A stretch of 64,000 bases of DNA from Bacteroidales bacterium (lineage in GTDB: Bacteria > Bacteroidota > Bacteroidia > Bacteroidales > UBA932), in assembly GCA_024402135.1 (NCBI GenBank), contig JAKSJN010000002.1, forward strand, positions 207,450 to 271,449, read 5' to 3'. Position 1 is the stretch's first letter; each line of letters starts with the position of its first letter. This document shows, piece after piece, positions 17,251 to 42,978 of this stretch. The position numbers were made by a program, and so were the translations under genes. The notes under the pieces are model-generated. The model was not told the DNA's origin, made no database searches, and saw nothing but the letters and a program-made list of their open reading frames with translations.

Positions 17251-18558
17251 TCAATGGCTATGGTTGTGTGCGTGAGGAACGATAGAAGCGGAGGCAAGCT
17301 TTACCTGGTATGCGCCTGCTACCACGAGATCATCTCCTTCATGAAGGCCGGAAAGGATCTCGACGTTCTCGCCGTTTCTTTCTCCGACCTTGACAGGGAC
17401 CTTCTTGTAACAGTCCTCATCAAGTCTTACATAAACGAAGAATTCGCCCTGTTCCTCGGTAAGAGCAGTCTCCGGAACCGATATGACATTCTCCTTCCAG
17501 CCTGTGATGAGCCATACCTCGGCATATGCGCCAGGAACGATGTCACCACAGTTATTGAACTCGAAGGTGATATGCAGATATGGTGAATCCGATTCAAGTG
17601 CATGAGCGACTGAAATCAGCTTTCCGTCAAGCTCATCGAGAGTATGGGAATGATCACCGTCAGCCATACGGAAATTCGCGCTGCTGATCGATGAACGGAG
17701 ACCCATGTATTTCTCGGGAAGATCTGCCTGAAGACGCAGTTTGCGGTCCTGGGTAACGACTCCTACCGGTTCTCCTGCCGAAACGTACTCTCCTTCGCTC
17801 TTGAGCATCTCCTTGATGTATCCGGCTATCGGAGCAGTGACGCTTACGCCGCTGGTTCCGCTTCCGGCAGATACACCTTCATATGAATTCTTAGCCGTCA
17901 GATAAGCTGCTTCAATGGCATTGAAATCACGTTCAGATATAAGCTTCTCTTCAACAAGGTTCTTTGCACGCTCATATTCCTTGAGCGCCGCCTGGTACTC
18001 GATACGGGCACGGGTAACGAGGTCTCCCTCAGCCATGCTGCCTCCTGATACGCGGGCAATGCTTTGGCCTTTGCTTACCTGCTGGCCAGGGGCCGGAGTC
18101 CGGCCACCAAAACTGATGATACCCGACGTACGGGCAGTAAGATACGCCTCACTGCCGCTTGCAGGGAGAATCAGTCCGGAAGTATGTATAGTGGCATGGA
18201 ACGGTCCAGGATGAACGGCCTCGACCTTCACTCCTGCAGCCTCAGCCCTTTCCGGCTCGAGAACGATCTCTCCAGCAGCGTGGCTTTCTCCTTCATGTTC
18301 GTGATCATGACCGTCATGGTCATGTCCCTCATGGCTGTGTCCGTGATGTTCGTGAGCATCATGATCGTGTCCGTCATGGTCGTGGTGATGTCCCTCATGT
18401 TCTTCGTGATCGTGATCCTCGTGGTCATGGTCGTCATGGTCATGGTGATGGATTTCTTCACCTTCGTGGGCATGATTATGGCCGGCATGATCTCCACAGC
18501 CAGCCATAAGGAAGATTGTGCTGCCGATAAGCAGTACAGATATGATTCTTTTTCTCAT
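17251..18558 (-). CDS. RND efflux periplasmic adaptor lipoprotein with His-rich tract
   Basis: The 435-residue membrane-fusion protein begins with a lipoprotein signal (lipobox LMAGC, Cys21). Residues about 24-96 are an acidic His-rich tract with around 30 histidines in HDHDGHDH-like runs. The usual adaptor parts follow: lipoyl-like halves (GLILPASGSEAYLTARTSG and APIAGYIKEMLKSEGEYV), a short hairpin (EYERAKNLVEEKLISERDFNAIEAAY), a beta-barrel and a membrane-proximal domain. It ends in HAHNHSH. The tract probably captures metal and hands it to the pump; Zn, Ni, Co and Cu all bind such sequences. The start at 18558 begins the lipoprotein signal. It is the first gene of the operon, with a palindromic operator candidate upstream (18597-18615). 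Confidence 0.93.
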   Translation of the reverse strand: MRKRIISVLLIGSTIFLMAGCGDHAGHNHAHEGEEIHHHDHDDHDHEDHDHEEHEGHHHDHDGHDHDAHEHHGHSHEGHDHDGHDHEHEGESHAAGEIVLEPERAEAAGVKVEAVHPGPFHATIHTSGLILPASGSEAYLTARTSGIISFGGRTPAPGQQVSKGQSIARVSGGSMAEGDLVTRARIEYQAALKEYERAKNLVEEKLISERDFNAIEAAYLTAKNSYEGVSAGSGTSGVSVTAPIAGYIKEMLKSEGEYVSAGEPVGVVTQDRKLRLQADLPEKYMGLRSSISSANFRMADGDHSHTLDELDGKLISVAHALESDSPYLHITFEFNNCGDIVPGAYAEVWLITGWKENVISVPETALTEEQGEFFVYVRLDEDCYKKVPVKVGERNGENVEILSGLHEGDDLVVAGAYQVKLASASIVPHAHNHSH

Positions 18559-38912: not shown

Positions 38913-41900
38913 TTAAAGACCCTGACCGTGGCAGTTCTTGTACTTCTTGCCGCTTCCGCAAGGGCATGGATCGTTACGTCCAACCTTCTTGTCCGCGATG
39001 ATAGGGCGATTGACCTTCTGCTCTCCGTTGGTGGTGAGTTCATTACGGTTAGCCTGCATGCTGGTCATATCCCTCTTTGCAGGTTCCGGTGCACGCTTTG
39101 GTTCCTCTTCACGGAGTGGAATGAATGCACGGAGAAGGAATGAGAGTACATCCTGATTGAGGGTCTCGAGCATCTGGGCGAAGATATTGTAGCTCTCGAG
39201 CTTATATACTACGAGAGGATCCTTCTGCTCGTATGATGCGTTCTGTACGCTCTGGCGGAGATCATCCATCTCGCGGAGGTGATTCTTCCAACGCTCATCG
39301 ATCTGGTAGAGGATGATGGTCTGGCTGAGTCTCTTAGCGACCTCACGGCTCTCGGTCTCGTATGCCTTCTCGAGGTTTACTGACAGATTGAGCATATGAC
39401 GGCCGTCAGAGATAGGGAGTGCGATGTTGGTGTACATCTGTCCCTGCTTCTCGTATACCTGCTTGATGATAGGGTTGATCTTGGTCGCAATCGCCTCCAT
39501 GCGGCGGTTATATGTCTCCATCATGGTATCACGGAGCATCTTTGCGAGCTCCTGCGGCTTTGACTTTGCGTAAACCTCAGGATCCATTCCAGGATCAATA
39601 GAGAACTTGGCCATGATGAGCTCAGCGAAGTCTTCGTATGAAAGGCCTTCTGCATTGTCAACCACGATAGAAGCCGAATCGGTCATCATGTTGAGAACAT
39701 CGATCTCGATTCTCTCTCCCGAGATTGCATTGCGACGGCGTGAGTAGATAGCCTCACGCTGATAGTTCATCACGTCATCGTACTCAAGGAGACGCTTACG
39801 GATACCGAAGTTGTTCTCCTCGACCTTGCGCTGAGCCTTCTCGATAGCGCTTGAGAGCCATGAGCTCTCGAGTGCCTCGTTGTCTTCCATTCCGAGCTTG
39901 TCGACCATACCGGCGATACGCTCTGAACCGAACAGACGCATGAGCTTGTCCTCGAGTGACACATAGAAGGTTGAGCTGCCCGGGTCACCCTGACGTCCGG
40001 CACGACCGCGAAGCTGGCGGTCCACACGGCGTGAGTCATGACGCTCGGTACCGATGATGGCGAGACCACCGGCAGCCTTGACTTCCGGAGTCAGCTTGAT
40101 ATCGGTTCCTCTACCGGCCATGTTGGTTGCAATGGTAACCGCACCCTTCTGACCTGCCAGAGCAACGATCTCCGCCTCACGTGCGTGCTCCTTTGCATTG
40201 AGGACATTGTGTCTGATACCTCTCATTCGCAGCATACGGCTGAGGAGCTCGGATGTCTCGACGTCAGTTGTACCGACGAGGACAGGACGGCCCGCCTCCG
40301 AGAGTTCAGCCACCTTGTCGATAACGGCAGCGTACTTAGCCTTCTTGGTCTTGTATATGAGGTCCTCGTTGTCTTTTCTGAGGATAGGACGGTTCGTAGG
40401 AATCACGACAACGTCAAGCTTGTAGATGCTCCAGAACTCACCTGCCTCGGTTTCTGCAGTACCGGTCATACCGGAAAGCTTGTGGTACATGCGGAAGTAG
40501 TTCTGGAGAGAGATGGTCGCGAAGGTCTGGGTTGCAGCCTCGACCTTTACATTCTCCTTTGCCTCGACAGCCTGATGGAGACCATCGCTCCAGCGGCGGC
40601 CCTCCATGATACGGCCCGTTCCCTCATCGACGATCTTGATCTTGTTGTCCATTACAACGTAATCGACATCCTTCTCGAACATCGCATATGCTTTGAGGAG
40701 CTGGCTGACAGTATGTACGCGCTCGCTCTTGAGTGCGAAATCCTCCATGAGGGCGTCCTTGCGCTCCTGCTTCTCTGCGAGAGAGAGACCAGCCTTCTCG
40801 ATCTCCGCGATCTGCGAGCCTACATCAGGGAGCACGAAGAAATCAGCGTTGTTCACTGAGTTTGCAAGCATGTCATGACCCTTGTCGGTCATATCTACCG
40901 AGTGCTGCTGCTCGTTGATCACGAAGAAGAGCGGATCGGTAACCACAGGCATCTCACGCTCATTATCCTGCATGTAGTAGTTCTCGACCTTCTGGAGAAG
41001 AACCTTGATGCCTGGTTCGCTGAGATACTTGATAAGCGGCTGATACTTTGGAAGACCCTTGTGACAGCGGAGAAGAAGCTTTCCTCCCTCCTTCTCGTCA
41101 CCGGCAGCAATGAGCTTCTTTGCCTCGTTGAGGGTCTGGTTGACGAGTGAACGCTGGTTCTGGTAAAGTTTCTCGACGAATGGTCTGAACTCCATGAACT
41201 GGTCATCGGAAGTAGCACGTGCAACCGGACCTGAGATGATCAAAGGGGTACGGGCGTCATCAATGAGGACCGAGTCGACCTCATCGACGATTGCGAAGTG
41301 GTGCTTCCTCTGCACGAGGTCGGTCATACGTGTCGCCATGTTGTCGCGGAGGTAGTCGAAACCGAACTCGTTGTTGGTACCGAAGGTAATATTGCTCTCG
41401 TATGCCTTCTTACGGGCATCACTGTTTGGCTGATGCTTGTCGATACAGTCCACAGAGAGACCGTGGAACTGGTAGAGAGGGCCCATCCACTCTGAGTCAC
41501 GCTTTGACAGATAGTCGTTCACGGTAACGACGTGAACTCCCTTTCCGGCAAGTGCGTTGAGGAATACAGGGAGGGTTGCAACCAGGGTCTTACCCTCACC
41601 GGTAGCCATCTCTGAGATCTTTCCCTGATGAAGGATGATACCACCGATGAGCTGTACATTGTAGTGTACCATGTCCCAGGTGATCTCATTGCCGCCCGCC
41701 ATCCAGTGGTTCTTGTAGATAGCCTTGTCGTCCTCGATGGTGACGAAATCAGACTTGATGCTGAGGTCACGGTCGAACTGGTTTGCAGTAACGACGATAG
41801 TCTCGTTCTGAGCAAAACGGCGTGCGGTTGACTTCATGATCGAGAATGCGGTAGGAAGGATTTCGTCAAGACACTTCTCGATTGCAGTATCCTCATCCTT

Positions 41901-42179
41901 GGCGAGCTTGTCAGCCTCGGTAGCGAGCTGTTCCTTTTCCGATATGGCGATATCGCCTTCCATCGTCTTCTTTATCTCCTCGATGCGGGCCTCGAAAGGA
42001 GCCTCGCAGTCTCTGAGCTTCTTCTTGAGTTCCTCGGTCTTCGCACGAAGATCATCATCGCTGAGTTTGTCGATGACGTCGAATTCGGCGAGGACCTTGT
42101 TGAGGATAGGCTTGATAGCCTTCATGTCACGCTCGGCCTTTGAACCGAACAATTTCTTTATTACTCCTGCAACTGACAT
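38913..42179 (-). CDS. secA: Protein translocase ATPase SecA
   Basis: The 1088-residue product is full-length for Bacteroidota SecA. It has the N-terminal helix ([20 protein letters not shown]), an early Glu/Lys-rich insertion, Walker [30 protein letters not shown], the second motor domain ([39 protein letters not shown]) and the C-terminal zinc motif [14 protein letters not shown]. It drives preproteins through SecYEG. I placed the start at 42179. A leftward promoter lies at 42261-42290, and an unusual repeat array is upstream of that (42326-42642). Confidence 0.97.
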
Positions 42180-42260
42180 ATCTATTTGTTTTCTAATCAA
42201 TTAAATATTATCCATACGCCAAGAGCGCACCAATTGGGCACAACAAGGCACATAAACGTA

Positions 42261-42290
42261 CAAATTTAGTGATTATTAGCGAGAAACACA
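42261..42290 (-). promoter_or_regulatory. Probable secA promoter
   Basis: Minus-strand TAAATTTG (42261-42268) is a -7 box, with TGTG (42287-42290) at 18-nt spacing as a weak -33 box. The leader to secA is about 80 nt. Confidence 0.5.
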
Positions 42291-42325
42291 ATATGCCTCC
42301 TCTTCCATCAAATGCCGTTCCATTA

Positions 42326-42386
42326 GGGATTTCTGACACTCCATCGGGGTTTTCTGACGTTCTGTCGGGTCATCTGACATGACAGG
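42326..42386. repeat. Three tandem 20-21 bp repeats (GGG...TCTGAC) leading into the array
   Basis: Three consecutive units start at 42326, 42346 and 42367. Each begins GGG(A/G/T), carries TCTGAC in the middle, and is 20, 21 and 20 bp long. They abut the first inverted-repeat unit at 42387 with no gap. Confidence 0.6.
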
Positions 42387-42642
42387 TGTCACGATTTTCG
42401 ATATTTTCGTGACACTTGGCGACTTCTGACCTCTTAGATTCCACGAATCCGGCATTTTTCGTGACACTTCGCCGCGATTTGCCACTTCTGACAGCGTTTT
42501 TCGAGGGAGATGTCACATTTTCGCGGGATTCTGTGTCACCTGACGCTCTCGGATGGCTTATATGTCACGTTTTATTAGTTTTTCGTGACACCTGACGCTC
42601 ATGAATGTCCCAAATGTCACGATTCTGGCCGTTTCTGTGACA
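42387..42642. repeat. Phased array of five 28-bp inverted repeats TGTCAC-N16-GTGACA
   Basis: Units lie at 42387-42414, 42439-42466, 42511-42538, 42563-42590 and 42615-42642. Three are perfect at both half-sites; unit 2 starts TTCCAC and unit 3 ends GTGTCA. Start-to-start distances are 52, 72, 52 and 52 bp; 72 is 52 plus 20. The 24-bp gaps also share sequence (TTCTGAC or CCTGACGCTC). N16 interiors differ but are T-rich with a central CG or GG. There is no open reading frame that explains it. It lies between secA and tRNA-Cys. Confidence 0.8.
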
Positions 42643-42710
42643 TCTTGTCAACCTTGGACATCTAACTCAGAGCAATGCCGATTTCAGATAAGCTCGATAA
42701 GGAATAAATA

Positions 42711-42743: not shown

Positions 42744-42747
42744 AATG

Positions 42748-42818
42748 AGGTGCGTAGCGGAATCGAACCACTGTGCACGGTTTTGCAGACCGTTGCCTAA
42801 CCACTCGGCCAACGCACC
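42748..42818 (-). tRNA. tRNA-Cys (GCA)
   Basis: On the minus strand the acceptor GGTGCGT (42818-42812) pairs with ACGCACC (42755-42749), with discriminator U at 42748, as usual for tRNA-Cys. The anticodon stem ACGGT/ACCGT holds loop CTGCAAA, anticodon GCA. The T-arm AGTGG-TTCGATT-CCGCT is present. CCA is not encoded. Confidence 0.96.
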
Positions 42819-42828
42819 GTTGGGACTG

Positions 42829-42859
42829 CAAATGTATGAAAAGATTTCTTAATACCAAA
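42829..42859 (-). promoter_or_regulatory. Promoter of tRNA-Cys
   Basis: Minus-strand TTTG (42859-42856), N19 and TACATTTG (42836-42829) form a full consensus promoter 10 nt before the tRNA. Confidence 0.82.
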
Positions 42860-42879
42860 AATAATTCAAAACAATTGAC

Positions 42880-42887
42880 TACCTTTG
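42880..42887 (+). promoter_or_regulatory. -7 box of tRNA-Gly
   Basis: TACCTTTG lies 17 nt before the tRNA. No TTTG is seen at the -33 position. Confidence 0.55.
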
Positions 42888-42904
42888 TTCCTGCAGATAA
42901 TGCT

Positions 42905-42975
42905 GCGGGATTAGCACATCGGTAGTGCATCGGCTTCCCAAGCCGAGGAGGCGGGTCCGACTCCCGTATCCCGCT
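42905..42975 (+). tRNA. tRNA-Gly (CCC)
   Basis: The acceptor GCGGGAT (42905-42911) pairs with ATCCCGC (42968-42974), discriminator T. The anticodon stem TCGGC/GCCGA holds loop TTCCCAA, giving anticodon CCC. D-loop and T-arm (GCGGG-TCCGACT-CCCGT) are present. CCA is not encoded. Confidence 0.95.
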
Positions 42976-42978
42976 CAA

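Follow-up and report, generated by a model that had tools for sequence, protein, structure and literature searches.

The secA upstream region

The window analysed here is a stretch of 64,000 nucleotides (G000:C12:207450-271449, G000 being the own genome of this Bacteroidales bacterium) taken from a genome of 2.61 Mb in 34 contigs that is 98.1% complete. Its secA gene, which scores 1738 bits against the NCBIfam model NF009536 (cut-off 1493), lies on the minus strand and reads away from an array of repeated half-sites located between secA and the hairpin of a tRNA-Cys gene. The features of the region are the following.

38913..42179, minus strand: secA (1088 aa), with Pfam SecA domains and the NCBIfam NF009536 match
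42261..42268, minus strand: candidate primary-sigma -7 element TAAATTTG, from its sequence and pattern position; poorly kept in the relative G225 (TATATTCG)
42307..42322, minus (secA) strand: sigma-54 type -24/-12 core TGGAACGGCATTTGAT, 20.4 bits
42333..42347, minus strand: promoter-proximal dyad, one half good (TGTCAG) and the other degenerate; dyad score -0.5, combined score 19.9; 11 nt from the core
42354..42366, minus strand: dyad TGACG-TTC-TGTCG inside the TCTGAC repeats, 7.3 bits; missing from G225
42380..42391, no strand: 12-bp dyad TGACAGGTGTCA, identical in G225
42387..42414, no strand: 28-bp unit 1, exact; both arms altered together in G225
42439..42466, no strand: 28-bp unit 2, two mismatches (left arm TTCCAC); left arm intact in G225
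42511..42538, no strand: 28-bp unit 3, one mismatch
42563..42590, no strand: 28-bp unit 4, exact
42615..42642, no strand: 28-bp unit 5, exact
42638..42650, no strand: 13-bp dyad TGACATCTTGTCA with a 3-bp spacer as at chaperone promoters, 9.3 bits
42717..42743, minus strand: terminator-like hairpin 3' of tRNA-Cys, spotted by eye
42747..42818, minus strand: tRNA-Cys

With the terminator-like hairpin on one side and the promoter on the other, the array is probably little transcribed. The tRNA-Cys/tRNA-Gly pair beside it (window 42747-42976; L093 1776-2005) is inverted in G225: its order is tRNA-Cys (minus), tRNA-Gly (plus) in the window and tRNA-Gly (minus), tRNA-Cys (plus) in the relative. Elsewhere in the window, 18311-18450 contains short tandem repeats with periods of 15 and 21 (CCGTCATGGTCGTGT).

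Composition of the array

A preliminary description of this DNA had reported five units of the form TGTCAC-N16-GTGACA. Their positions (starts at 42387, 42439, 42511, 42563 and 42615) and their spacing of 52, 72, 52 and 52 bp were confirmed, but three of the five are exact, one carries a single mismatch and one carries two. The three TCTGAC repeats it had placed 20-21 bp apart are indeed present at 42332, 42353 and 42373 (steps of 21 and 20 bp), with further copies at 42425 and 42487. The array far exceeds chance expectation: in 2000 dinucleotide shuffles of its 327 bp the mean number of units was 0.042 and the maximum two, and the 14 half-sites TGACA/TGTCA compare with at most seven in the shuffled sequences. 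The array contains 43 half-sites per kb, as against 2.5 in the other intergenic DNA of the contig and 3.1 in the remaining, mostly coding DNA, the division between the two being drawn from rough gene calls. Unit copies are 60-77% identical to the reference copy; the near-identical repeats of a CRISPR are lacking, in agreement with the preliminary description. Units 3 and 4 have in common the downstream sequence CCTGACGCTC as well as the 52-bp period.

Proteins bound to the units had been suggested to sit on one face of the DNA. The 14 half-sites exhibit a periodicity near 10.4 bp (R = 0.59 at 10.4 bp, 0.48 at 10.5 and 0.22 at 10.6; p = 0.014 against random positions for the best of these three periods), but the phasing is modest. 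The expectation of many phased copies throughout the genome was not borne out, as the exact unit occurs three times in the own genome, each time within the array. With one mismatch allowed it is found at seven further places, including the third unit of the array, and the most similar-looking of those outside stands alone at C5:32821. A general nucleoid motif was considered and dropped, since k-mer enrichment in the intergenic DNA of the whole contig did not single out TGACA.

Chaperone promoters with the same half-site

A 13-bp dyad found at chaperone promoters, TGMCA-N3-TGKCA, uses the same half-site as the array, TGACA/TGTCA. The own genome contains 23 copies of this palindrome (control 8), and nine relatives have 12-27 each (controls 2-11). 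Among the 21 of the 23 own sites that were read, six are at grpE, clpB, htpG, dnaK, lon and groEL, one is in the array and 14 are elsewhere; gene names were assigned by reading translations, and own groES is not listed, only groEL behind it. Twenty hand-picked, mostly A+T-centred sites of four relatives include 13 at dnaK, groES, clpB, htpG, grpE or lon; the rest are one at rsfS and six elsewhere or within genes.

At 16 chaperone promoters from four genomes the dyad is followed by 12 bases (14 of 16) or 11 bases (2 of 16) and then by a sigma-54 type -24/-12 core of the form TGGMA...TTTGA. This arrangement is observed at dnaK, groES, grpE, clpB and htpG, in the own genome and in relatives, and the own groES core is the canonical TGGCACGGACGTTGC. 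Three rows for lon misfit the geometry, and lon was excluded from the scoring matrix; the rsfS dyad lies inside an opposing ORF and is not in the promoter table. Counting TGACA, TGTCA, TGCCA and TGGCA over 323 bp gave 15 at secA versus 2-6 at the 16 chaperone promoters.

On the secA strand, two adjacent dyads can be recognised at each 28-bp unit, which would contain their inner halves, for example TGACACCTGTCA and TGACAAGATGTCA. The basic binding site is probably not the unit itself but the dyad of 12-13 bp, of which two neighbours each contribute an inner half to the unit. Several outer half-sites in the array are degenerate. In many of its dyads the spacer is 2 bp long, versus 3 bp at the chaperone dyads, the array dyads at 42354 and 42638 being those with 3 bp. 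Moreover, the unit arms are flanked by C and the chaperone dyads by G. Reading the units as inner halves of chaperone-type dyads is the weakest step of our interpretation.

A sigma-54 type core in front of secA

Directly downstream of the array on the secA strand lies the sigma-54 type core. Under a matrix built from the 16 chaperone promoters, whose own cores range from 12.2 to 21.9 bits, it scores 20.4 bits; no other site on either strand of the 271-kb contig exceeds 16.1. Within the secA region the runner-up cores score 5.8 (secA strand) and 9.6 (opposite strand). In 500 shuffles of the intergenic region none attained 20.4 (mean 7.1, largest 20.1). The -24 GG and the -12 element are correctly spaced. 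The -12 element ends in GA and not in the canonical GC, an ending also seen in most of the tabulated chaperone cores. The dyad closest to the core is at the right position (11 bp), but with one half degenerate it scores -0.5 versus 17.8-24.5 in training. The candidate -7 element nearer to secA was compared with the primary-sigma consensus TAnnTTTG (PMC9723704).

Conservation of the array and of secA upstream regions

A DNA search of 300 genomes of the genus with the segment 42230-42746 found matches in 18, of which the own genome and G225 alone matched the array. The G225 match is 73% identical over 224 query bases; the other genomes match in short stretches on the promoter side or at the tRNA terminator. 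A second query (41900-42420) against 398 relatives returned, at an E-value of 1e-60 or better, the own genome and G225 only. The cross-species conservation that had been hoped for is therefore present in one close relative and in no other of the 300 and 398 genomes searched. In the same interval two units, spaced by exactly 52 bp, are present in G225 where the own genome has five, and in unit 1 of G225 both arms are changed together (TGTCAT...ATGACA). In the alignment of the two genomes six half-sites are identical at 30 of 30 bases, a count favoured by the choice of half-sites intact in the own genome, and the core at 16 of 16, versus 101 of the other 155 bases of 42266-42466 and 61 of 78 in the leader (42180-42257). 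The proposal that the array is a multi-operator control region for secA is supported by these half-sites conserved amid drift and by the conserved core on the secA strand just downstream of them. An exact-unit search of 61 genomes of the genus matched five, the own genome and four relatives with one copy each, and revealed no dispersed repeat family of the exact unit among the 61.

We then compared 108 secA loci, the own genome included, made up of 78 of the 80 in one set and the 30 best of another; L065 and L090 were excluded, their match having stopped short of the secA start. The two sets appear to include partly the same or near species, so that the following counts are not independent. 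TGMCA-N3-TGKCA is found within 300 bp of secA at 13 of 108 loci and at 300-600 bp at one, with none for the reversed control, and other spacings from 0 to 8 occur in 0-3 of the 108 regions. A combined dyad-core score of at least 14 is reached at 11 of 108 loci on the secA strand, at none of the 108 on the other strand and at none of 102 farther upstream. Strong cores by themselves are not enriched at secA: a score of at least 12 occurs in 4 of 108 regions, while the opposite strand has 2 of 108 and the distal stretches have 1 of 102.

Among the 30 nearest genomes a secA dyad score of at least 12 is found proximally in 20, versus distally in 1 of 29, and a strong core (at least 12) in 2, with none on the opposite strand and none of 29 distally. 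Dyads before secA are thus usual in the genus, whereas a strong core together with an array was seen only in the clade of the own genome and G225. Many relatives have a secA dyad with no good core 11-13 bp away. In several, 22-24 nt separate the dyad from a weak core (scoring 1.3 to 6.8); this is about one helical turn more than at the chaperones, which is no more than suggestive. Ten other secA regions have 1 to 9 half-sites within stretches of 270 bp (L023 9; L117, from G225, 7; L145 7). The region upstream of secA in L145 (G162) exhibits a good dyad but no good sigma-54 core; beside the dyad, four TGACA half-sites follow one another in tandem every 19 bp (TGACAAGAAGTGCTTGGGA), which may reflect an independent expansion at secA.

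Sigma-54 and a candidate activator

The own genome encodes a sigma-54 with all three domains. It contains five Sigma54_activat matches, two strong and three weak, one of the latter in the clpB region. The first strong match is a 406-aa protein (C7:30255-31472) that starts with the AAA+ domain, ends in a Fis-type helix-turn-helix (HTH_8) and has no sensor domain. It heads a series consisting of the AAA+ activator (bEBP), lptE, an ORF with no Pfam match, secG, a dyad with its core, and clpB. Homologues of this AAA+/HTH activator are present in 10 of 10 genomes of the genus searched. In five of these ten (own, G117, G162, G191 and G012) a dyad lies 1.4-1.6 kb downstream of the activator gene, and in three of them clpB was read. 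A search for HrcA yielded none in the own genome, while the control was positive in 7 of 14 genomes. We propose the C7 protein as the probable heat-shock activator. The second strong match (L224 4855-6003, G000:C29) is a response regulator with no HTH match in Pfam.

PspF of E. coli likewise consists of an AAA+ domain and a Fis-type HTH with no sensor domain, and the NCBIfam pspF model aligns with the candidate over residues 15-402. The candidate is nevertheless not PspF: it scores 256 against a PspF cut-off of 443, and is encoded beside lptE and secG. AAA+ relatives are present in the PDB.

A probable enlarged enhancer and its alternatives

The array looks like an enlarged version of the heat-shock gene switch of the same bacterium. 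We consider it rather likely that it is an enlarged upstream activating sequence, or enhancer, of a predicted sigma-54 promoter driving secA; this reading builds on features visible in the DNA, namely the core, the common half-sites, the conservation in two species and the gene content. The enhancer would probably serve the heat-shock AAA+ activator, the sole activator found here with a DNA-binding domain. The broader proposal, that a PspF-like activator linked to lptE, secG and clpB governs a heat-shock regulon of Bacteroidales and that this clade captured secA through a 300-bp, roughly helically phased array, is put forward more tentatively, as plausible but short of probable.

From these elements we infer activator binding, a response to stress and the direction of the effect. 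Protein-folding or envelope stress would release or induce the AAA+ activator, dimers of which would occupy the array dyads and form hexamers on adjacent, roughly helically phased sites. The activator would then remodel the sigma-54 RNA polymerase, opening it at 42307-42322 for transcription of secA. Many sites may raise the local activator concentration, and secA would then respond more steeply or more strongly than chaperone genes with a single dyad. Expression of secA would be coupled to that of the folding machinery, and perhaps also to that of secG in the activator's gene cluster.

The array could instead be read by two regulators, the TCTGAC repeats serving the sigma-54 activator and the 28-bp units being operators of another dimer, a repressor or anti-activator, that recognizes a similar TGTCAC/GTGACA half-site. 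The C/G flanks of the unit arms, opposite in sense to those of the chaperone dyads, and the differing spacers point this way, and the joint change of both arms of unit 1 in G225 fits a 28-bp palindromic site. The units, however, overlap chaperone-type dyads (42380-42391, 42638-42650), and with exact units at the array alone such a regulator would have a single target in the genome; we regard this arrangement as unlikely. That same paired change, which is compensatory, also speaks against a functionless tandem repeat that arose next to an ordinary sigma-54 promoter by slippage or duplication and is now decaying, as does the retention of arms amid drifting interiors and spacers (an arm count favoured by the choice of half-sites). 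The sequence and period common to units 3 and 4 and the copy number differing between the two species, five versus two, are what such a repeat would leave behind, and we rate it as less probable again. The chromosome-organising, segregation or replication site that had also been suggested appears very improbable: phased palindromes would suit it, and the half-site is similar in its letters to that of E. coli matS, but exact units occur at a single locus, the half-site is common to the chaperone-promoter dyads, and 2 of 300 genomes of the genus have the array.

Relation to known systems

The SM4 motif of Flavobacterium psychrophilum is a sigma-54 motif that precedes groES, lon, dnaK, grpE, htpG and clpB, and the activator of these chaperone promoters was left open among three candidates (PMC9723704). 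A 2025 survey found chaperones enriched among sigma-54 targets in Bacteroidota (PMC12316311). Sigma-54 control of chaperones is thus already published for this phylum. The secA case is new to the literature searched, no case of secA under sigma-54 control in Bacteroidota having been found in open-licence publications. Compared with the SM4 promoters, a -24/-12 core precedes the same chaperone genes here, lon excepted, and secA has one as well; in the available excerpts of that paper no dyad is named beside the core, and secA is absent from its printed selection (PMC9723704). The dyad-core geometry, the single HTH activator and the bEBP-lptE-ORF-secG-clpB cluster together name an activator candidate and a site that can be tested, and heat-shock control in Bacteroidota becomes directly testable.

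The preferred reading, an enlarged enhancer of secA, also invites comparison with better known enhancers. The NtrC enhancer of E. coli glnAp2 likewise places several activator dyads, about five sites, upstream of one sigma-54 promoter; the secA array differs in its 15 half-sites, in its motif and in starting next to the core. If our reading is true, the array shows the number of sites that one natural sigma-54 enhancer can accommodate, and export and folding stress have one common switch; the array would then be a bacterial counterpart of the clustered multi-site enhancer, tying export capacity to folding stress. The LuxO operator TTGCA-N3-TGCAA, bound by a sigma-54 activator, is like the chaperone dyad a 13-bp dyad with a 3-bp spacer, though letters and genes differ.

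Elsewhere in the genome, at L174 1445-1513 (G000:C1:31296-31363), a pair of dyads separated by 55 bp was also observed, together with a sigma-54 type core of 16.5 bits that lies 12 nt from the dyad. The gene downstream is weakly similar to anti-phage nucleotidyltransferases (NCBIfam NF053871, 47 bits, cut-off 350).
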